Shown: positions 915 to 36,846 of the stretch, piece after piece
Numbering within the stretch: the first letter of the stretch is position 1
Layout of the letters: each line of letters starts with the position of its first letter
Origin: a virus
Reading direction: 5' to 3' (one strand)
Length of the DNA: 41,027 nucleotides
Virus record (IMG/VR): IMGVR_UViG_3300005782_000009
Location: 1 to 41,027 of that record
Notes under the pieces: generated by a model
Databases searched by the model: none
What the model saw: the letters and a program-made list of their open reading frames with translations, nothing else
What the model was told of the DNA's origin: nothing
Made by a program: the position numbers and the translations under genes

Positions 915-1062
915 ATGCTAAAACAGAGACCTCTTAGCTATAGACAATGGCGATATGATACGATTTAACGAGCATTCAACAGCTCCTTGCTTGTATCGTT
1001 TGTTGCTTTCACCCCACAATAACTAACAGCGGACTAGCCAATGGGCACTAGTTGTGCTATTC

Positions 1063-1077
1063 TTAGGGTAACAAAGG
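1063..1077 (+). repeat. Repeated 15-bp leader box, copy 1
   Basis: TTAGGGTAACAAAGG occurs here and again at 1380-1394, each time shortly upstream of an ATG (1093 and 1404) and merging into the ribosome binding site. It is either a shared translation or regulatory element or the trace of a duplicated leader. Confidence 0.6.
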
Positions 1078-1092
1078 TGAGAGGAAGACAAA

Positions 1093-1595: not shown

Positions 1596-1624
1596 TATAT
1601 TATAGGGTAGAACTTTAACAATTG

Positions 1625-1722
1625 AATACTGGGTAGGAAAAGATACTGACGAGTATGGTGCGTAAGCAGGAGCGGTGAGTTAAATGGTAGGCTCGTTAAA
1701 ACCCAGCCTCCTATCCAGTATT
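1625..1722 (+). ncRNA. Folded RNA element 1 of the early operon
   Basis: There is no open frame from 1596 to 1852. Here 1625-1638 (AATACTGGGTAGGA) pairs with 1709-1722 (TCCTATCCAGTATT) over 14 positions, with one G.U pair at 1633/1714 that is a pair only in plus-strand RNA. An inner stem 1647-1654/1691-1698 (ACGAG/CTCGT core, two more G.U pairs) encloses a small hairpin TGC-GTAA-GCA with a GNRA-type loop. The left arm can instead pair CTGGGT (1629-1634) with ACCCAG (1701-1706), so two exclusive states are possible. No U-tract follows, so it is not a plain terminator. I know of no matching class. Confidence 0.55.
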
Positions 1723-1742: not shown

Positions 1743-1838
1743 GTGAAAGGAGCTAATTTACTTCAGCCCTTCTTACAAAAGAAGCTCATACTTAATAAAA
1801 ATAGGCTTTCACATAAGGAGGGCTGAGGTAAGTAAGCT
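1743..1838 (+). ncRNA. Folded RNA element 2, long hairpin with pseudoknot
   Basis: Bases 1751-1775 pair with 1814-1838 over 25 positions: 21 Watson-Crick pairs, three G.U pairs (1757/1832, 1762/1827, 1771/1818) and one A-A mismatch (1755/1834). All three wobbles are valid only in plus-strand RNA. The 38-nt loop contains CTTTCAC (1806-1812), complementary to GTGAAAG (1743-1749) just 5' of the hairpin, giving an H-type pseudoknot. The 3' arm holds AAGGAGGG, a Shine-Dalgarno sequence that the fold would bury. The downstream zinc-ribbon gene (ATG 1853) uses a separate AAGGGGG site right after the stem. A translational switch, processing site or stand-alone RNA are all possible. Confidence 0.6.
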
Positions 1839-2878: not shown

Positions 2879-2979
2879 GATACCCACGCCGATATATGTT
2901 TAGTAGCTATCACCAATACACTGTAGCTCGTAGAATTTGGAGAGTATGGAATAGGAGGCGAATAAATGGATATCAATGA
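2875..2979 (+). CDS. 34-residue basic peptide
   Basis: An open frame of 34 codons starting at the ATGA overlap with the previous stop, behind GGCGGAG, and running 14 nt into the next gene. The peptide is rich in Arg and Tyr (MRYPRRYMFSSY at the start, RRIWRVWNRRR near the end). The coupling and site favour a real gene, but short size and unusual composition leave doubt. Confidence 0.4.
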   Translation: MRYPRRYMFSSYHQYTVARRIWRVWNRRRINGYQ

Positions 2980-3403
2980 ACTCAAGGCTCAAATCAATAC
3001 CGTAGTAGAGGCGAGAGGGAACGCTAAAGCCTATGGTGAGGAAAAGTCAAAGATATATGAGGAGGTGGAGAAAAAACATGCCAGTCTCTTTGCTGATGCA
3101 TTTAACGCAAACGAGATAGTGAAGGAGGAGGAAGCCACACTAAGGAAACTCACGCTACAAGCCTATGCCACAACAGGCAACAAAGCCCCTGCTGAAGGTG
3201 TTGGCATCAGAGAGATGACAGTCCTGACTTATGATAACAAGGTTGCCTTTGACTGGGCTAAGGCACACAAGATGGCTTTGAAGCTGGATACCTCAGCCTT
3301 TGAGAAGATAGCGAAGGCAGACCCACCTGATTTTGTCAAGATTACCACCGAGCCACAAGCCACGATTGCCACTAATCTTCAGGAACTAAAGGAAGGGGAA
3401 TAA
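2966..3403 (+). CDS. Conserved hypothetical phage protein, coiled-coil N-terminus
   Basis: A 145-residue protein. Residues 1-65 are predicted helical and coiled-coil. The C-terminal half contains FDWAKAHKMALKLDTSAFEK and PPDFVKITTEPQATIAT, a pattern I associate with an uncharacterised phage early protein family. GGAGG lies 7 nt before the ATG. It could be a chaperone-like or nucleic-acid-associated protein; nothing decides this. Confidence 0.7.
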   Translation: MDINELKAQINTVVEARGNAKAYGEEKSKIYEEVEKKHASLFADAFNANEIVKEEEATLRKLTLQAYATTGNKAPAEGVGIREMTVLTYDNKVAFDWAKAHKMALKLDTSAFEKIAKADPPDFVKITTEPQATIATNLQELKEGE

Positions 3404-3916: not shown

Positions 3917-4059
3917 TGGAGCAGTCTATATTTGATACTTATAAACGACTGAAAAGCCAGGGTCTATCCGGTAAAGAGGCAATAGAATACCTTGAAAGTA
4001 AGCTGGGTCAGTTACCAGAGCATATAAAGGAGATGTTGAGAAATGGAAGAGCACAATAG
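3916..4059 (+). CDS. 47-residue helical hypothetical protein
   Basis: A small protein (MEQSIFDTYKRLKSQGLSGK at the start) predicted to be two or three helices. It is coupled to the previous gene by a TAATG overlap and itself overlaps the next gene by 17 nt. GGAGCAAGG lies before the start. Function unknown. Confidence 0.6.
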   Translation: MEQSIFDTYKRLKSQGLSGKEAIEYLESKLGQLPEHIKEMLRNGRAQ

Positions 4060-4375
4060 AAAGCTACTGGAATGGACGGGCGTTAAAAACATCATTACCA
4101 TAGATAATGGGGATATGATTTGGAGGGATAAAGATGGCAATGGCTGGTGCTTAGAATACTTCACCAACTCCCTAGATGCTTGCTTTGAACGGCTTGTGCC
4201 AAAGCTAAATAAAGATGGTTGGGATGTTTCACTGGAGCAAGAGTTTGAATGGTGGCTTTGCACCCTGATAACTCAAAAGGAACCTTATATTGAGCAATAC
4301 GGGAAAGCAAAAGCCCCAGCCCTAGCGTTATGTAGGGCGGTTGAGAAACTAATAGATGGAGAGAAGAAATGTTAG
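4043..4375 (+). CDS. Conserved phage protein, possible ABA-sandwich domain
   Basis: A 110-residue protein with many aromatic residues (WRDKDGNGWCLEYF) and a C-terminal helix KAKAPALALCRAVEKLI. The last motif (A-x-A-L-C-R-A) recalls the Phage_ABA_S family and related small phage proteins, in which the same helix ends the domain. The role of that family is unknown. AAGGAGA precedes the ATG, and the gene overlaps both neighbours. Confidence 0.6.
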   Translation: MEEHNRKLLEWTGVKNIITIDNGDMIWRDKDGNGWCLEYFTNSLDACFERLVPKLNKDGWDVSLEQEFEWWLCTLITQKEPYIEQYGKAKAPALALCRAVEKLIDGEKKC

Positions 4376-4575
4376 AGTTTAAATTTGAGCAGAAAGAAAA
4401 CGGGTGGCAGGTAACAGATGGGGGTAAAATCTATGTCTATACCTCACTCCAGAAAGCCATCAAGAATACTTGGATGGGTAGGGTATTCTATAAAAAGCCT
4501 CACAAGGCAATGGGTATAAAACGCTTCAAGCTCATCTTTGATTTGGGGGAAGATAACAATAGAGGGAGTAAATAA
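4369..4575 (+). CDS. Hypothetical protein
   Basis: A 68-residue basic protein. The first half looks like a small beta sheet (FKFEQKENGWQVTDGGKIYV), the second half is Lys-rich. It overlaps the previous gene by 7 nt and the next by one base (TAATG), so expression is coupled. No family recognised. Confidence 0.6.
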   Translation: MLEFKFEQKENGWQVTDGGKIYVYTSLQKAIKNTWMGRVFYKKPHKAMGIKRFKLIFDLGEDNNRGSK

Positions 4576-4838: not shown

Positions 4839-5034
4839 CTTAACTGAGAATAACAAGGGGTTACAATGTCCCTATAGGTATATCTTATGTCAGGAAGGCT
4901 GGTGTTCTGATTGCAACATTTATCAAACCTTCTTGACAATCCAAGAGGGATATGGTATGCTTAATAAAAAGGGGGAGGCAAGTGCCACAATTAGGGGAAA
5001 TAAAAAGGGAACTCAAAACAAGCAAAGCTGGTAA
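4822..5034 (+). CDS. Cys-rich small protein
   Basis: A 70-residue protein with CPYRYILC and CSDC clusters, probably binding one metal ion or forming disulphides. GGAG lies 8 nt before the ATG. Its last 17 codons overlap the HNH gene that starts at 4982 in another frame. That Lys/Asn-rich tail may have been added when the HNH gene was inserted. Confidence 0.55.
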   Translation: MNRKFSLTENNKGLQCPYRYILCQEGWCSDCNIYQTFLTIQEGYGMLNKKGEASATIRGNKKGTQNKQSW

Positions 5035-5545
5035 AGAGAAAAGGCGTTACCATATTTGGGTGAAATGCCCCGAATGTAATAAGGAACATTGGGCAGATTA
5101 TTACCATATAAAGAGTGGCAATCCCAAGAGACCTGGGCTATGTTTCCCTTGCTCTTCTTATTGCCAGCAAGGCGAAAAAAGTCATCAATGGAAGGGAGGC
5201 AGACAAAAAACAACAAGGGGCTACATCACAGTCAGGATTGCCCGCAATGATTTCTTTTATCCAATGGTGGCTAAGGGGGGACGTGTTTTTGAACATCGTC
5301 TTATGGTGGCAAAATCTCTCAATCGCTGTCTGTTGCCTTGGGAAATTGTCCATCATAAAAACGGTATTAAGGATGATAACAAAATAGAGAACTTACAGCT
5401 ATTACCAGATAAACGATGGCATTTAGTAGATACCCAAACCAAGGCAATGATTAAACAATTGCAAGAAGAAAATGCATACTTGCGGGAAGAAATAGCAAAG
5501 CTCAGAGACATAGCTGAAGAAAATCTAAGGGAGGTAATTAATTAA
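4982..5545 (+). CDS. HNH endonuclease, homing type (GTG start)
   Basis: A 187-residue protein from a GTG start. A longer frame opens at ATG 4952, but GGGGGAGG sits just before the GTG, and the resulting N-terminus MPQLGEIKRE matches the usual start of this phage HNH family. Residues 25-60 form a zinc finger (C29, C32, C54, C57). The nuclease core has FEHR (103-106), HHKNG (124-128) and N137, an HNH_3 arrangement. Residues 155-185 are a coiled coil, possibly for DNA contact or dimerisation. Such genes are mobile, cut DNA site-specifically and spread between phages. The overlap with the Cys-rich gene before it fits insertion. Confidence 0.85.
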   Translation: MPQLGEIKRELKTSKAGKEKRRYHIWVKCPECNKEHWADYYHIKSGNPKRPGLCFPCSSYCQQGEKSHQWKGGRQKTTRGYITVRIARNDFFYPMVAKGGRVFEHRLMVAKSLNRCLLPWEIVHHKNGIKDDNKIENLQLLPDKRWHLVDTQTKAMIKQLQEENAYLREEIAKLRDIAEENLREVIN

Positions 5546-29522: not shown

Positions 29523-30188
29523 TTACTTGATTCTGCCAGCTCTCCGAGCAGCATTTATTGCGTCTTGCTTCTTTTCAAACTCCTCGGCAGACATATTTTC
29601 TATTTGCTGGCGGGTAAATGATTCTCCACCCCCAGTTGTCTTACCAGAATCAGGTGTTAAGGTCTTGGCTTCACCCTTTTTAGGTAAAACCTTGGCTAGT
29701 TTCTCCATCGCTTCAACAGAGCCATCCGTGAATTCTATAAGAGTTTTGGCATCAACCTGAAGGCGAGTGGCTACCTCACGGGCATTTCGCTCCTTCGTGT
29801 GTTTTGCCTCTACCTCTTGTGCCTCTGTGGTCTTTGCCTTCTCATCATCCAGTTCCTGCTTTGTCTTAGCAAGTTCGGTTTCAGCCGTCCTTCGTCCTTG
29901 CCTTTCCCGTATTGTGGTTTGCTTTTCAGAGTCATCCCCCGCAGCTGCTAACTCGGCTTCTTCTTGGTTTTTGATGAATTGAGTTAGTCTAGTTTCAGCA
30001 GCATTAGCGGATTTCACTGCTTTCTCAGTAGCTACTCTATAGCGACCCACTTCGGCTAAGGCATCACTACGAACCTTGTGTTCCCTCTCCTCCACCTGTT
30101 CCTTTGTAAAAGTTTCGGGTTCTGTTTTTGAGGTATCCTCTTGTTCAGCAGAAGTGTTTACATCCTGCTTTTCATTTGGTTCGCCCAT
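29523..30188 (-). CDS. Capsid scaffolding protein
   Basis: A 221-residue, highly charged protein. The first 35 residues are acidic and disordered, residues about 35-150 are coiled coil, and the C-terminus (AEEFEKKQDAINAARRAGRIK) is a basic helix that would bind the capsid shell. This is the classic scaffold composition, and it precedes the capsid gene by 20 bp. It directs procapsid assembly and leaves before or at packaging. Confidence 0.8.
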   Translation of the reverse strand: MGEPNEKQDVNTSAEQEDTSKTEPETFTKEQVEEREHKVRSDALAEVGRYRVATEKAVKSANAAETRLTQFIKNQEEAELAAAGDDSEKQTTIRERQGRRTAETELAKTKQELDDEKAKTTEAQEVEAKHTKERNAREVATRLQVDAKTLIEFTDGSVEAMEKLAKVLPKKGEAKTLTPDSGKTTGGGESFTRQQIENMSAEEFEKKQDAINAARRAGRIK

Positions 30189-30316: not shown

Positions 30317-30487
30317 TTATTGATAGTTCAATGCTTTATGGCTTATATATTGTTTAGGCTCTGTATCAAAAACATTATATCGCTTACAAGTGGATTTGGG
30401 GCAAACAATAGCTATACCATTGGGCGTTATTTCACCTAGCTTCTTACCGCACCCATCACATTTTAAGTTACCTTTTTTATCTATCAT
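30317..30487 (-). CDS. Com-like small zinc-ribbon protein
   Basis: A 56-residue protein, MIDKKGNLKCDGCGKKLGEI, then VCPKSTC. CxxCxKxL followed by CPxxxC is the pattern of phage Mu Com-type zinc ribbons, which bind RNA in Mu; whether this one does is unknown. Its start overlaps the stop of the 2120-residue gene (ATGA), and it is followed directly by a promoter. Confidence 0.7.
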   Translation of the reverse strand: MIDKKGNLKCDGCGKKLGEITPNGIAIVCPKSTCKRYNVFDTEPKQYISHKALNYQ

Positions 30488-33400
30488 TTAAGCTCTTCCA
30501 ATCTCTCCCTCATCTCAGCAAGTGATTCCTCAAGCTCTGTAAGTTCCCTCTCTTCCACCACAGGTTTCTTTTCTAGCTTTTCTTTAATGGGGACATAGCC
30601 AAACTTCAATACTAGCCAAGCATCTAAGTCAAGGTTCTCCCATCGCAATATATTCCTTTGTGAGCCTACAGGCAAATCTAAATAGTCTCGGTATTTAAGA
30701 AAGACTTTCTCTGTCGGCACTTTACTAAAGTCCTTCTTCCCCCACACACCCATATTAACCATAGTATTATAGAATTCCTTGTTCTTCATTAAATACCAAT
30801 CATCTTCATACCACAGGTCGGTCTTTGATTTCTCTTCCCAATTATCAGGTCTAACGATACTAGGATTGGTATACCAGTAAATATAGGAGTTCATTTGCTC
30901 TTGGGGAAATCCCATATTCAAGGCATCACGCCTACGTCTGCCGATATGATAACCGAGATTTGCCTCTAAATAGGCATCACGAGCTTCATTAGTTTCAAGT
31001 GCGTCATATTCCCCATCTTGCTTGGCAAACTCTTTGTTGAGACGCAGGACACGTTCATTCCAATCCCTGCCATCATCAGTCCATATACCTTGTTCTAATC
31101 CCCAAGCTAAGTATTCGGGATGCTCTAACTTGTAAAGTTTAGCCTCAACACTACTCCCACTGGTCTCAGCCACAATCTTGTTAAGCTCAAAGTAGCTATC
31201 AATCAAACTCGGAGGGGGTAATCCTAAACCCATTTGCTCTAATGGTATGCCTAATTCTTGCCCCCACTTAACTACCAAATCATAGGCTTCCCTTGATTGA
31301 AGTTTGCCACCATAGCCCCAGAGAGCTAGCATAGCATCATTTTCGGGATTAGCAAGCCTGAATTCAGCCCGCCAATCTTTAGCCAGTTCAGGGTAAGCTT
31401 CAATAAAGGCTTCCTTATCTACATCTGGTAGTGCTTGATATTGCTCCCACAAGCTGTAGTGTTCGGTAGGTATATTACCTTCAGCCCCATCATCTTCATC
31501 CATCTCCATTATGGGCTTATAAGGTAATCGCCAATATCCTCTGCCAAGTTTATCTTTGTCATCAGATAACCTAATAAGCACAGGGTTCATATCATCAAGC
31601 AATCTCTTTTGAGCATACATCTGCCTGATTGTCTCGTAATAGTCAATACCCCATTTTTCTATTAGTGCATCAACCGCTACATCCCTTGCGTTCCAATCGT
31701 AGTCGCCCTTCTCATCGGTATAGTCAGTAAACATAATGTCAATATATTCAGCTAGGGCTAAGTCAGCTACAAAACCATACCTTTCACCTCTCTCGCTTTG
31801 CATCTTGTCAAAGTAATCATATATAGCTTCGTGGGCTGGGTCTTTATCAATCATATCCAGAGCAACACCGTAGTTTTGCCCAGCATCCCCCCACTTTTCC
31901 CTGAATTCCCTAGTGTCCAATTCGCCAGATATTACACGCTCAACTAATTGGTCGCCTCTTTCGTAATAGATAGTTCTTTCTTCGTCTTGTCTTTCAGTCC
32001 AAGCCTCCCAGTGGGGGCTTTGTCTTACCTGACTGTCAGCTTGGGCTTGCTCATAGACTTCCAGAACATCGGGATAACGGCTTAATAAGTTCGTCTTCTG
32101 TATATCAGTCAAATGTCTCCACTCCAACTTACCCTCACGCCAAGCCTCCTTTTGTTTCTCATCTAACTCCTCTTCAGGGATACGATTGATATAATCCTTA
32201 ACCTTATCATAAAACTGTATCCACTGCCCTTCGGGGAATGTTCTCAAACCAAGTATCTCGGCTGGTATCACAGCTTGTCTTGCTGCCCCCTCTGGTATCT
32301 CATTCTCCCTTGCCATTCCTGGTATGAATGGATTTATCCCTTGCTCCATCCAGATAGGTTCAAATTTCTTTAGAATATGCTCTATATAATCCTGTGGGGT
32401 CTCCAAAGGATACCCCAAAAACTCCCTACCGCTTGCCAATTCAAAGCCAAGACCAAAGGTAGTCGCTGCTCGGCTATACCACCAATAGATAAATGGGTTA
32501 TCTCTCTTATTGAGACTCCCGTGCTTGATAATGCGGACTAAATCTATTCTCTCCCTTTCTCCAACTTCATCCACACACGCCATTACATTCCCAGCCAATC
32601 TAATCAAGCCATACCAGAAGCCACCAACCCCCATATAGTAATTACCTACTTTAAGAGTCATAAACCTGCCAGATGGTCTCCATTCTACCTCTTTTGTTAT
32701 TGGGTCTTCAAAGATACAGAAACCCTCCTTAACAGTATTCCAAGCCTGCTCATTGTCTTTGCCCTCAATAGTCGCTATTGCATATTGAATACCCGAATAG
32801 TAAATAGCTCCAGCAGATATTAAGCCACCAATAGCCCGCCTTGCCATCTCACCGGTCATCCCACCCCTGAATATATCAGCTAAAACAGTCAGGCAAGCTC
32901 TAGTATAACTAGGGGCAAACCAGATGGCTGATTGCTCTAGTTGTCTAATTGTCAGGGGGACACCCAACGTTGCTGGGTCTGTAATGCCTGTCATTCTATC
33001 AAGAATACGCATCAATTCAATCTCTTGTCCCCTCTTTATAGCTTTAGGTAATAATATTCTAGCGAACTCAGTCCTTATCATCTGCCCAGCACCGAAGAAG
33101 GCTATCTCAGCCCTATGATAAGGTTTTAGTGGAATGTTACGCAGAGCAGCTTCACCTAATCCCCCTATTCCCTTTTTAGCTCCTAATGCCGCAAAGTAAT
33201 CAACAGACCTAGCACTACTACCCAAAGCTACCATCTGTGCCATTAAATCTTTATTCTTTACTACATATTTAGCTAGAATATCGGGATTGAAGAAGGCTCT
33301 ACTTGACTGGAAGAATGTCTTATACCAAGCCCCACATAATTTAGCACCCATCTCTGGATTGCTTATTAAGTAAGTATGTGCCAATCCCCAAGAGGGCAAG

Positions 33401-36400
33401 CCCTGAATTGCCATAGCTGATAAGTCTAAGGCAGCCTTTGTTATTCTAAGAATGCCAGCCACATCAGCCACTACTTGTAATCCAGGTATCCCCTTTTCAT
33501 AACCAAAGAACTTATTGAAGGCATCAATGAATGCTCGGTCATATATCTTTCCACCTGCAAAGGGCTGCATAATGTAGCCCTTCTCAATGCCAGGCTGTCT
33601 TATCTCGGCTAGTTTCTCTGCTTTTTCAGTTCGGGCTTTCCAGTAAGGGGCTTTACGGGCTTCGGTTAATGCTCTGACCTCTTTCCGCAAGGCTTCTAAT
33701 TCTAGTTTCCGCTGTGCTACTGTCTTTATCGCAGGCATCTCATAGGAAACTTTGCCTATTGTGGTCTTAGCTTCTAATCCCTTTACGCCTTCAATTTGAG
33801 GCTTTATGCTAACTTCAGGTGGTGGTAAACCAGCATCTTTTCTAACCTTAACCAATTTCTCGTAATCGTCCATTCCAATTTGCGTCACCACACCCTTACC
33901 TTTAGGAAATACTGGCTTCTGAAAGCCAAACATATCCTGTTGTAAGCCAGCCTCAGGCATACCCGCTTCTGCTTTGGGGACAAACTCAGGTCTACTATCC
34001 ACATCATCAAGAACTTTTATCATACGCTTAATGCCTGTGTAACGGCTATCGGCTAACCTAGTTAAAAGTCGCAGGTCTTTGAGGGTGGCTCGCTGACTGA
34101 ATATAAACTCTATATGGTCAATCAGTTGTTGCTCGGTCATTTTGAAATGGTCAGCTAATTCATCTACGACTACACTTCTTGGCACTCTGCCCTTGACAAT
34201 AGTAACAGGTTCTTTACCCATCATCAGCATCCTCGCTTCTGCAATGCTGAATGTTTCGGGGAATTGCCCCTTAACAAGAACCGCCGTTAAGGGAACTCGC
34301 TTGCCACGAATAACTCCGTGATATAAAGCCACTGCATCAGTCTTCAAGAACTCCTGAATGCCACGAAGTTCCATCCCTTGCTCGCCAAGCATCCGTCCTA
34401 TATCATCTAATTGGGTCTCCATAGTAGAACGGAAGGCAAGCCTATCTTCATACTCCATAAGTCTAAAAGCATCAGTCAGCTTTTGGTCATCGGGTATCCC
34501 TATCCTAACGGCCTCCGCTCTTATAGCTGCAATATCAACAGCTTCAGCTTTTTCTAACCTAGCCGTTAATTGCTTAATAGTCTTCTGGTTTTGGGCTAGT
34601 ATCTCCCTTAACTGCGCCTCCGCCCTAATTGGCTCTCGTATCAAGCCCCTGAATTGCCTACCAAGTTCAGGGAATCGCCTTTCTAAAGCCCTTAATGTCT
34701 GTTCGGGTAGTTTCTCACCTCGTATAGCCCTATTGATAACTGATTGGAAATAAGCAGCATTGCCCAATTCAACTTCAGTTAAAGCAGCCCTTCCAACTAA
34801 TTCAGGAAAGCGTTGAGCCAGTATGTCAGATGGTTTCACCCCAAATGCCTCAACATATTTAGCAACCCTAGCATCGGCTACTTTCTTAAAGGCTTCCTCT
34901 ATGAAGGTTGAAATATACTCTTCGGGATTTTTGCTATATAAAACACCCCATTCTATACCCTCAGCCATTGTGGGGGCTTTTCTATGCATTTCAAAGGAGG
35001 GTTTAGCTCCTATTCTACCAGCCCGCACCCCAGGTCTACCCCTAACTCTAATCAATTCCGCATTGGCATCAAACTTGCCAACAACTACCCTATGTATCCA
35101 CCAATCCTGTCCTACATTCTCAAGGGCAACCCCCTCTTTCTTTAGGAAGTTTACTATCTCAGTGTTTATTTCGTGGACTCTAGTTACATATTTAAGCTGT
35201 TTATCACTTAAAGCATAGCGTTCAGGATGAGTAAATATATTCTCAAGCGTGCCGTCAGCTTCTTTAACTAGCTTCCGTATTCTAGGAGCAAATGCTTTAT
35301 CATTAAAGCCAAAGAGCCTTATGGGATTGCCACTTATCTCACGCAACTCCCATACTTTAATTGCCTTAGCATTTGGCCCCCTACGCATTATTTCAGAATG
35401 AATAACACCAGCACGGGCAACTATATCTTCTACCGCTTGTGATTGTCTCTTGGCGAGTATCCTCCAACCTAAACTCTTCTCAATACCCTTTCTAATAGGG
35501 GGAACTTTAGCAGCAATGGTTAAACTACGCCTTATCCAGTTATCTATTAGAACACCATCAAGGAGCATCTCCGATTCAGGTAAATCCATTAATGCCTCAA
35601 GATGCTTCGTGCCCTTAATAAGACGATTGGCTGCTGCCTCACCAATTCTCTCCCCGAATCGCTCAATACCCTTAGTGCCATAAGTTGCCAATTTAAGTGT
35701 TGTGTGTGCCCTAACATACTGCACGCCACCAGCAGTTGTCCGAACTACTCTACCGATAAGAGGTATTTTGCTAGTAAAATTGGCTGATAATCCAAACACT
35801 CCACCAATGGGAATAAAATAAGCTGGGTTAAGCCATTCGCTAACTTTGAGCATAGCATTGGCTGGCCCATAAGTTTTCTCTATATAGTTGTGCCAAATAT
35901 CAGGCACATCCTCAGAGATTAAAGCACCCCAAAATCCATACTTCTCACGAGCCTCAGCCAACCTATCCAATGCTTCCTGATTTAATTCCTCGCCTTGACC
36001 TAAAATAGTTTTTGAGTGTAGGTTGCACCTAGCCTCAAGGATTGCAGTTTCCCAAGGTCTCCCCACATAGGTTTCTATATAAGAACCAGCAACGCCCAGA
36101 GCAGCCAAGGCAATGCGTCCCCCACCGCCCCAGCTAAATGCATCAGCAGCCATATACTCTCGCCACGCTTGCCCTAATCCCTCTTTGGCTACTTCTATGA
36201 AAGTCGGTGCAGGACCAGGGATGATTTCCCCAGTTTCAAGGTTATATGTGCCAATGTTCTCTCCCTCAAGCCAAACAGTAAAATCAGGTTTTATGGTAAA
36301 GAGCTTTCTAATCCCCTCAACTTCCTCAACGAATTGATAGCCTTCAGGTGGAATTTCAAATGGCACAGGCGGAGCGAGAATCGCATCAATGTCTTCTTCA

Positions 36401-36846
36401 CTAGCCCCAAGTTGTCGTAGTATTAATCTTGCCTGCTCAGGCTTCTCTCTCCCCCACAAGTCCTCTATAAAGGTCTCTGGCTCTTCCACCGCCCAAGTTC
36501 TCAGGTTCTCTAAAATCACATCAGGTAGGTCTTCAACACTAATACCAAAACTAACATCAGGCTCAAACATTTCAGGGTAAAGGTATTCTAGTGTAGTGGG
36601 TAAATCCATTTCAGGAGGCGTTGGAACTGTGGGTATAGTAACAGGCGGTGCTATTCCCGGAGGTTGATATGGAGTTATGGGAGGCTCAACCATCGCAGGG
36701 GCTTCAATGGGAGGTATCTCAGCTTCAGGCTTACAGTAATAACCTCTTTCTACTGAATATGCTAAGACAGAGCCTGGGAGACAGGTAGGTAGTTTCTCAG
36801 GACGCTCGGCTTCTTTGGGTAGTTTATAAAATCTTTCTTCTACCAT
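30484..36846 (-). CDS. Giant virion protein, candidate ejected internal protein (2120 residues)
   Basis: A single 6.4-kb frame, 15 percent of the genome. Residues 38-83 are Pro-rich; a hydrophobic stretch lies near 240-262; residues about 700-1100 are charged helix with coiled-coil segments. ALDLSAMAIQGLPSWGLAHTYL near 1145 and a hydrophobic block near 1330-1365 recall LPD38-type domains of phage polyvalent proteins. The last 700 residues are acidic and rich in Trp, Tyr and Asp. It lies between portal and scaffold genes, where short-tailed phages encode internal virion proteins. It could form the ejection channel or carry injected enzymes. I cannot assign a catalytic site. Confidence 0.6.
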   Translation of the reverse strand: MVEERFYKLPKEAERPEKLPTCLPGSVLAYSVERGYYCKPEAEIPPIEAPAMVEPPITPYQPPGIAPPVTIPTVPTPPEMDLPTTLEYLYPEMFEPDVSFGISVEDLPDVILENLRTWAVEEPETFIEDLWGREKPEQARLILRQLGASEEDIDAILAPPVPFEIPPEGYQFVEEVEGIRKLFTIKPDFTVWLEGENIGTYNLETGEIIPGPAPTFIEVAKEGLGQAWREYMAADAFSWGGGGRIALAALGVAGSYIETYVGRPWETAILEARCNLHSKTILGQGEELNQEALDRLAEAREKYGFWGALISEDVPDIWHNYIEKTYGPANAMLKVSEWLNPAYFIPIGGVFGLSANFTSKIPLIGRVVRTTAGGVQYVRAHTTLKLATYGTKGIERFGERIGEAAANRLIKGTKHLEALMDLPESEMLLDGVLIDNWIRRSLTIAAKVPPIRKGIEKSLGWRILAKRQSQAVEDIVARAGVIHSEIMRRGPNAKAIKVWELREISGNPIRLFGFNDKAFAPRIRKLVKEADGTLENIFTHPERYALSDKQLKYVTRVHEINTEIVNFLKKEGVALENVGQDWWIHRVVVGKFDANAELIRVRGRPGVRAGRIGAKPSFEMHRKAPTMAEGIEWGVLYSKNPEEYISTFIEEAFKKVADARVAKYVEAFGVKPSDILAQRFPELVGRAALTEVELGNAAYFQSVINRAIRGEKLPEQTLRALERRFPELGRQFRGLIREPIRAEAQLREILAQNQKTIKQLTARLEKAEAVDIAAIRAEAVRIGIPDDQKLTDAFRLMEYEDRLAFRSTMETQLDDIGRMLGEQGMELRGIQEFLKTDAVALYHGVIRGKRVPLTAVLVKGQFPETFSIAEARMLMMGKEPVTIVKGRVPRSVVVDELADHFKMTEQQLIDHIEFIFSQRATLKDLRLLTRLADSRYTGIKRMIKVLDDVDSRPEFVPKAEAGMPEAGLQQDMFGFQKPVFPKGKGVVTQIGMDDYEKLVKVRKDAGLPPPEVSIKPQIEGVKGLEAKTTIGKVSYEMPAIKTVAQRKLELEALRKEVRALTEARKAPYWKARTEKAEKLAEIRQPGIEKGYIMQPFAGGKIYDRAFIDAFNKFFGYEKGIPGLQVVADVAGILRITKAALDLSAMAIQGLPSWGLAHTYLISNPEMGAKLCGAWYKTFFQSSRAFFNPDILAKYVVKNKDLMAQMVALGSSARSVDYFAALGAKKGIGGLGEAALRNIPLKPYHRAEIAFFGAGQMIRTEFARILLPKAIKRGQEIELMRILDRMTGITDPATLGVPLTIRQLEQSAIWFAPSYTRACLTVLADIFRGGMTGEMARRAIGGLISAGAIYYSGIQYAIATIEGKDNEQAWNTVKEGFCIFEDPITKEVEWRPSGRFMTLKVGNYYMGVGGFWYGLIRLAGNVMACVDEVGERERIDLVRIIKHGSLNKRDNPFIYWWYSRAATTFGLGFELASGREFLGYPLETPQDYIEHILKKFEPIWMEQGINPFIPGMARENEIPEGAARQAVIPAEILGLRTFPEGQWIQFYDKVKDYINRIPEEELDEKQKEAWREGKLEWRHLTDIQKTNLLSRYPDVLEVYEQAQADSQVRQSPHWEAWTERQDEERTIYYERGDQLVERVISGELDTREFREKWGDAGQNYGVALDMIDKDPAHEAIYDYFDKMQSERGERYGFVADLALAEYIDIMFTDYTDEKGDYDWNARDVAVDALIEKWGIDYYETIRQMYAQKRLLDDMNPVLIRLSDDKDKLGRGYWRLPYKPIMEMDEDDGAEGNIPTEHYSLWEQYQALPDVDKEAFIEAYPELAKDWRAEFRLANPENDAMLALWGYGGKLQSREAYDLVVKWGQELGIPLEQMGLGLPPPSLIDSYFELNKIVAETSGSSVEAKLYKLEHPEYLAWGLEQGIWTDDGRDWNERVLRLNKEFAKQDGEYDALETNEARDAYLEANLGYHIGRRRRDALNMGFPQEQMNSYIYWYTNPSIVRPDNWEEKSKTDLWYEDDWYLMKNKEFYNTMVNMGVWGKKDFSKVPTEKVFLKYRDYLDLPVGSQRNILRWENLDLDAWLVLKFGYVPIKEKLEKKPVVEERELTELEESLAEMRERLEELK

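Follow-up and report, generated by a model that had tools for sequence, protein, structure and literature searches.

A boxA motif and a long-range RNA helix of rRNA leader-trailer type in the early operon of a putative Dehalococcoidia phage

A noncoding gap in the early operon

The window, by which we mean the whole stretch of 41,027 nucleotides analyzed here, is a complete circular phage genome, as judged from its 99-bp terminal repeat, and its minus strand encodes the terminase and the major head protein. A noncoding gap of 257 nt (1596 to 1852) lies in the plus-strand early operon, flanked by ORFs at 1404 to 1595 and at 1853 to 2026. The gap holds a boxA motif, a long helix (HP1), a second hairpin (HP2), and a ribosome binding site (RBS), and the region from 1596 to 1860 folds with a z score of -5.4. 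The actual Shine-Dalgarno (SD) sequence of the next gene is AAGGGGG (1839 to 1845), as indicated by its spacing to the ATG at 1853, and lies outside the HP2 stem. The product of this gene (1853 to 2026) is a CPxCG/zinc-ribbon-like protein of 57 aa with no family match above the cutoff. A phage database search with positions 1380 to 2040 gave no match, and the search for direct homologues of the neighboring proteins yielded one fragment for the 57-aa protein and none for a 91-aa protein.

The HP2 hairpin

HP2 is the hairpin described in the earlier note, and the description of its stem holds. The arms (1751 to 1775 and 1814 to 1838), defined by the fold and the pairing count, form 21 Watson-Crick pairs, three G.U pairs, and one A/A mismatch over 25 positions, and each of the three wobbles reads as G.U in the plus-strand RNA, in agreement with the claim that they are valid only in the sense direction. 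The loop (1776 to 1813) contains a small inner helix, GAAGCU/AGGCUU, recognized from the fold and from the comparison with a related contig, IMGVR_UViG_3300028837_000585 (L210). The hairpin alone has a minimum free energy of -39 kcal/mol and is the lowest-energy 100-nt fold in the whole 41-kb window (both strands, step of 10), while the fold of positions 1700 to 1860 has a z score of -4.2, with none of 200 shuffles being as stable. No plus-strand ORF of at least 40 aa runs over HP2; the earlier note had named an ORF conserved through the region as a finding that would refute its reading.

The pattern scan with the HP2 3′ arm matched only the L210 contig, which has the sole HP2 homologue at about positions 5020 to 5105, exactly between two ORFs. 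Its stem differs from that of the window by two changes, both of which still pair as G.U, and the pairing is kept in this one clear homologue. The stable fold and the stem retained in L210 support the view of a structured RNA within the early operon.

With 24 of 25 positions paired, HP2 has the near-perfect intercistronic stem of about 20 bp expected for a T7-type RNase III site. It does not have the form of an intrinsic terminator, a GC-rich stem with a T run, and is followed by AAGGGGGATTAGAG. Most simply, HP2 may be read by analogy as a second, independent stem right before the next cistron, serving as an RNase III or mRNA-insulating site. Because one clear homologue and the analogy stand behind it, we propose this separate role tentatively. 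The locus L007 has a long hairpin between its boxA and RBS that ends in GGTAAGTAA, like HP2, and since none of its arms can be aligned with those of HP2, it is treated as an analogy only.

The boxA motif and the predicted host

The key feature of the gap, which the earlier note had missed, lies 130 nt upstream of HP2 and consists of a boxA that comes with a long helix of its own. The motif GAACTTTAACAATTGAATA (1610 to 1628, plus strand) matches the rrn motif of Dehalococcoidia and is the only exact copy in the window. Its core, CTTTAACA, is that of boxA, and the part of the window RNA at 1600 to 1645 that carries it includes CUUUAACA. In gamma-proteobacteria, the boxA consensus is GYTCTTTAANA (PMC5725501).

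A scan with GMACYTTAACAATTGAATA, using one genome per species, found the motif mainly in Chloroflexota, above all in Dehalococcoidia; one further context, which is repeated and resembles a mobile element, came from Bacillota. The motif lies 41 to 106 nt upstream of the 16S start in Dehalococcoidia and relatives (L113, L115, L138, L143, L149, and L181), and in two genomes (L107 and L170), it lies just upstream (about 47 nt) of the 23S gene. Since the same motif precedes 16S and 23S in Dehalococcoidia, we identify the window motif, which has a sequence equal to the host rrn boxA, as the rrn boxA of the host. The gene for NusB is present in all four host-type genomes searched, and RNase III was found in two of these four, the genomes probably being incomplete metagenome-assembled genomes (MAGs).

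From the boxA motif, one protein relative, and a copy of the HP1 sequence family in a genome of the Dehalococcoidia class (L330, see below), we infer that the phage host belongs to Dehalococcoidia (Chloroflexota). The search for protein relatives in 393 genomes of this class gave a single hit.

Two boxA-like sequences were noticed in addition. The sequence GTAGTTTAACAACTTAATA on the minus strand of the window (30288 to 30270) lies in the gap before an ORF at 30188 to 29523, with possible inverted repeats after it; it has three mismatches to boxA and could be due to chance. The boxA-like sequence GAACCTTAACAATTGAATAgaccaagacaagacattaatcatttttggag is found nearly unchanged in Peptoniphilaceae, streptococci, and others (L098, L103, L104, L105, L126, and L173, among other loci), in an apparent mobile element.

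The HP1 helix and its relatives

The 5′ arm of HP1, ACTTTAacAATTgAATACTGGGTAGGA (1612 to 1638), includes the boxA and has homologues in L052/L207 and L330. It is separated by a 70-nt loop (1639 to 1708) from the 3′ arm, TCCTATCCAGTATTgAGTTacTAAAGT (1709 to 1735), the 3′ half of which is an anti-boxA sequence, as is found in the host 16S trailer. The loop has no ORF, whereas L210 and many other phages have one at this place.

The leader-trailer helix of the 16S pre-rRNA in two Dehalococcoidia genomes (L138 and L143) is formed by TTTAACAATTGAATAGTGGAAGGAAGG and CCTTCCTTCCACTATTCAGTTGTTAAA, with the whole 16S gene in between in both. In these pre-rRNAs, the boxA itself is base-paired as part of the 5′ arm, and its complement lies in the trailer. 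At the level of sequence, HP1 repeats this layout, with the boxA inside the 5′ arm of a long-range helix. It does not enclose a 16S or 23S gene, the 70-nt loop being free of both ORFs and rRNA.

HP1 alone is of modest significance (P values of 0.007 to 0.015), and close homologues exist. L052/L207, which share the early operon, have an HP1-type helix with a loop that also lacks an ORF. L210, again with the same early operon, has a helix (TTTAGTGGTTCAATAGAGTGGGCGGGT/ACCCGCCCATTCTATTGAGTTACTAAA) that brackets an ORF of 61 aa, and here an inserted ORF splits the boxA from the HP1 arm. The ORF inserted within the L210 boxA (4035 to 4573) looks like an HNH endonuclease by eye, with no Pfam support. 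L330, from a genome of the same class as the Dehalococcoidia genome G004, is an ORF-less copy of the HP1 sequence family with a z score of 6.7, which supports the host assignment.

boxA-anchored helices in other viruses and in Chloroflexota

We collected 99 distinct noncoding viral boxA loci from two viral scans and the earlier loci and compared, for each, the 32 nt starting at the TGAAT of boxA with the next 800 nt, scoring the arm pairing ungapped and against 300 arm shuffles (threshold P ≤ 0.01). A boxA-anchored helix was found in 33 of the 99 loci, where about one would be expected, and in 32 of 90 after near-duplicates were merged. In the same test, 12 of 366 other SD-preceded ORFs in these contigs (3.3%) gave a helix. 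The remaining two-thirds of the viral boxA matches have no strong helix, and some of them are chance matches.

Thirty-six stems were inspected, comprising those of the 33 loci and 3 with the boxA inside a longer open frame, and 28 of them bracket an SD-preceded ORF. This ORF begins in most cases 12 to 46 nt downstream of the 5′ arm and mostly ends 6 to 23 nt upstream of the 3′ arm, which leaves both the RBS and the coding sequence free within the loop. In the stems, 60 G.U oppositions stand against 14 A.C oppositions (P = 6e-8), with a scoring that is blind to the difference between the two, as expected for sense-strand RNA.

When the arms of 17 viral loci are aligned together with those of two 16S loci, 87% of the cells are paired, compared to 32 to 46% when the arms are slid against each other. 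The alignment shows covariation: both sides are changed in 84 cells, compared to 26 in shuffles, and double changes occur in 12 pairs. As the arms were selected for being complementary, these counts lean towards a helix. This selection bias is absent from the tests with shuffled arms and with control ORFs.

The bracketed proteins are mutually unrelated except for one pair (L057 and L292). Searches of the bracketed ORFs against Pfam and PHROGs showed them to be essentially orphans, with no Pfam family, and thus to share no cargo function. Taken as sequences, the boxA-anchored helices are strongly supported as a class by the identity of the motif with the host rrn boxA, the helix layout, the covariation, the sense-strand wobble bias, and the bracketing of ORFs, and the window holds an ORF-less member of this class.

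Longer brackets of 660 to 990 nt are found in genomes of the Dehalococcoidia class and other Chloroflexota (L140, L169, L174, L326, L331, and L346 to L348). Those of L140, L169, L174, L326, L346, L347, and L348 contain larger genes, which are sigma-factor-like by eye.

A proposed antitermination and processing element

In the rrn operons of Escherichia coli, NusB-S10 on boxA, together with NusA, NusG, and SuhB, modifies RNA polymerase. With the boxA RNA tethered to the moving polymerase, the two arms of the helix are proposed to find each other more readily, and RNase III then cuts the helix (PMC4807359, PMC10250234). The phage element carries, as judged by its sequence, the cis parts of this rrn Nus/leader-trailer system. 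We consider it probable, with considerable room for doubt, that the gap from 1596 to 1852 is an rRNA-type Nus-factor antitermination and processing element placed on a phage mRNA and followed by the intercistronic stem HP2.

From these parts, we infer a course in which the boxA (1610 to 1628), on leaving the RNA polymerase, would bind the host NusB-S10 with the other Nus factors. The Nus-modified polymerase would resist Rho and pausing across the roughly 12-kb early operon, from 1610 on. The boxA strand would stay tethered near the polymerase until the 3′ arm (1709 to 1735) emerges, whose anti-boxA half may then pair, closing HP1 cotranscriptionally and releasing boxA from NusB-S10. The closing of HP1 would parallel that of the leader-trailer helix around the 16S rRNA. 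HP2 would serve as a putative RNase III cleavage or mRNA-insulating site, which separates the leader from the cistron of the 57-aa gene.

Alternative explanations

The same features could be accounted for in other ways. HP1 and HP2 might be ordinary hairpins between cistrons, for RNase III or for mRNA stability, as between the early genes of T7, so that the helices would stand outside antitermination even with a boxA present. The position of both stems between ORFs, their length of 14 to 25 positions, and the location of HP2 exactly between two ORFs in L210 and without a boxA of its own agree with this explanation, which we nevertheless regard as unlikely, as anchoring to boxA is far more common than at other ORF starts (33 of 99 against 12 of 366) and the 3′ arms carry an anti-boxA, as the host 16S trailer does. 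Very unlikely, in our estimate, is that the inverted repeats are DNA features, such as the ends of gene cassettes or morons or recombination sites, with the RNA helix as a by-product. Unrelated ORFs do occupy the same frame (only L057 and L292 being related), L291 and L301 have common arms with different ORFs, and the content differs among the window, L052, and L210. The arms vary by locus yet stay complementary, however, the 60:14 ratio of G.U to A.C fits RNA and not DNA palindromes, and the position of the arms is 3′ of boxA when read in the sense direction, with the same helix in the host 16S. The boxA could further be a repressor site as at suhB, where the Nus factors would block ribosomes, favor termination, and control the downstream genes; suhB is repressed by boxA in E. 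coli, and putative boxA sequences are located upstream of other genes (PMC5725501). The phage boxA precedes the next start by 225 nt and is coupled to a helix, and the RBS is free inside the loop in the bracketed loci, which makes this role highly improbable.

The interpretation of the earlier note, a regulatory switch in which an SD sequence is hidden in HP2 until a ligand or a pseudoknot rearrangement opens the stem, is scarcely credible to us. The stem is stable, and an SD-like sequence, AAGGAGGG (1815 to 1822), is indeed present in its 3′ arm, but it serves no gene: no ATG, GTG, or TTG follows within 5 to 10 nt, and the SD of the next gene is exposed outside the stem. Likewise, the two strands of the suggested H-type pseudoknot, GTGAAAG (1743 to 1749) and CTTTCAC (1806 to 1812), are there, whereas their pairing is not conserved in L210, the only homologue compared, in which the loop reads CTTACAC. 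When the loop is shuffled, 5.3% of the shuffles also have 7 bases complementary to the 30-nt 5′ flank, so that the pseudoknot is weak on its own. The GTGAAAG of L210 is displaced to about 170 nt upstream of HP2, within the SD sequence GGTGAAAGGGGG, and its context GGTGAAAGGGGGTTAGAGATG is the SD region of an extra ORF between GTGAAAG and HP2. Since GTGAAAG is part of an SD in L210, the copy in the window is best read as the SD remnant of a lost gene. The Rfam search returned no family at the gathering score or at relaxed E values, with only chance miRNA matches (E values of 0.4 to 0.6), and nothing points to a ligand. We also considered a switch by pairing of the SD of the next gene with a CCTCC in the HP1 3′ arm and dropped it, because CCTCC is absent at the matching place of L210 and HP1 closes more stably in the fold of the whole gap.

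Relation to known systems

Structured RNAs near the start of early phage transcripts are known from HK022, where the put RNA is an antiterminator that does not need Nus factors and is not known to carry a boxA; the phage element is likened to put by description. The early genes of T7 have intercistronic RNase III hairpins, which HP2 resembles as a long stem exactly between two cistrons, with the differences that it stands behind a boxA leader and that its cleavage is putative. With the lambdoid nut sites (boxA-boxB), the element shares a boxA in a phage early operon, after the first genes. No small hairpin of the boxB type follows the boxA of the window, which instead runs into a long arm (14 to 27 positions among these helices) with a distant partner, 70 nt away, and no N-like protein was identified.

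The closest likeness is to the rrn boxA and the 16S leader-trailer helix (PMC10250234; for the Nus-tethering model, PMC4807359), with a common boxA sequence in or next to the 5′ arm; the 16S of the Dehalococcoidia host has the same layout, with an anti-boxA in the trailer. In contrast to rrn, the phage helix is without rRNA and sits in a phage early operon, and its loop is ORF-less with 70 nt in the window, whereas most relatives have there one small protein-coding ORF that is preceded by an SD of its own. The suhB-type boxA is similar in being an rrn-type boxA reused on an mRNA, while the distance and layout differ and no bracketing helix is described in the part of that source used here (PMC5725501).

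The occurrence of boxA in phages (nut) and on cellular mRNAs (suhB) as well as the rrn leader-trailer helices are thus known separately. In the open-access papers searched, we found neither a boxA with a leader-trailer helix around a protein-coding gene nor a description of rRNA-like processing of phage mRNA of this kind; subscription journals may hold such a case. We lean slightly towards the broader view that Chloroflexota phages, as well as related elements of Dehalococcoidia genomes, enclose single protein-coding genes in a host-type boxA and leader-trailer helix. The antitermination complex of the rRNA operons would transcribe these mRNAs, which would then be looped and excised as units resembling rRNA (pseudo-rRNA units), and the window would hold an ORF-less member followed by a second processing stem.

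boxA and leader-trailer helices are usually regarded as features of rRNA operons. If the broader view is true, mRNAs can make use of the machinery that transcribes rRNA, and the dozens of helices, which differ in their arms and cargo, would be natural mutants. They could serve to test whether Nus factors chaperone the folding of RNA over long distances or do no more than block Rho. On rRNA, this question is difficult to answer, since its own sequence leaves little freedom for variation. The boxA helices may also explain strong transcription by phages of the slow-growing Dehalococcoidia.

Other observations in the phage genome

The 145-aa early protein (2966 to 3403) has a 45% relative in Caudoviricetes sp. 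vir515 (BK063672). This record gives Methanosarcinales as the host, and either the host label or the spread of the gene merits attention. The motif GTTAGGGTAACAAAGGAGG is repeated before the first early genes, both in the window (1060 to 1080 and 1370 to 1395) and in L052 (190 to 225, 470 to 495, and 925 to 950).

The minus-strand late operon includes a single ORF of 2120 aa (30484 to 36846). The leader of this operon (830 to 543, minus strand) appears to be a second orphan structured RNA, with a z score of -4.25 and no Rfam match for this region. It has homologues in L207/L058, L210/L211, and L206 and forms the stems CCTGAGC/GCTCAGG and CTGTGGGGtGAACGAG/CTCGTTCcCCCACAG. The leader in L210 seems to contain a small ORF.
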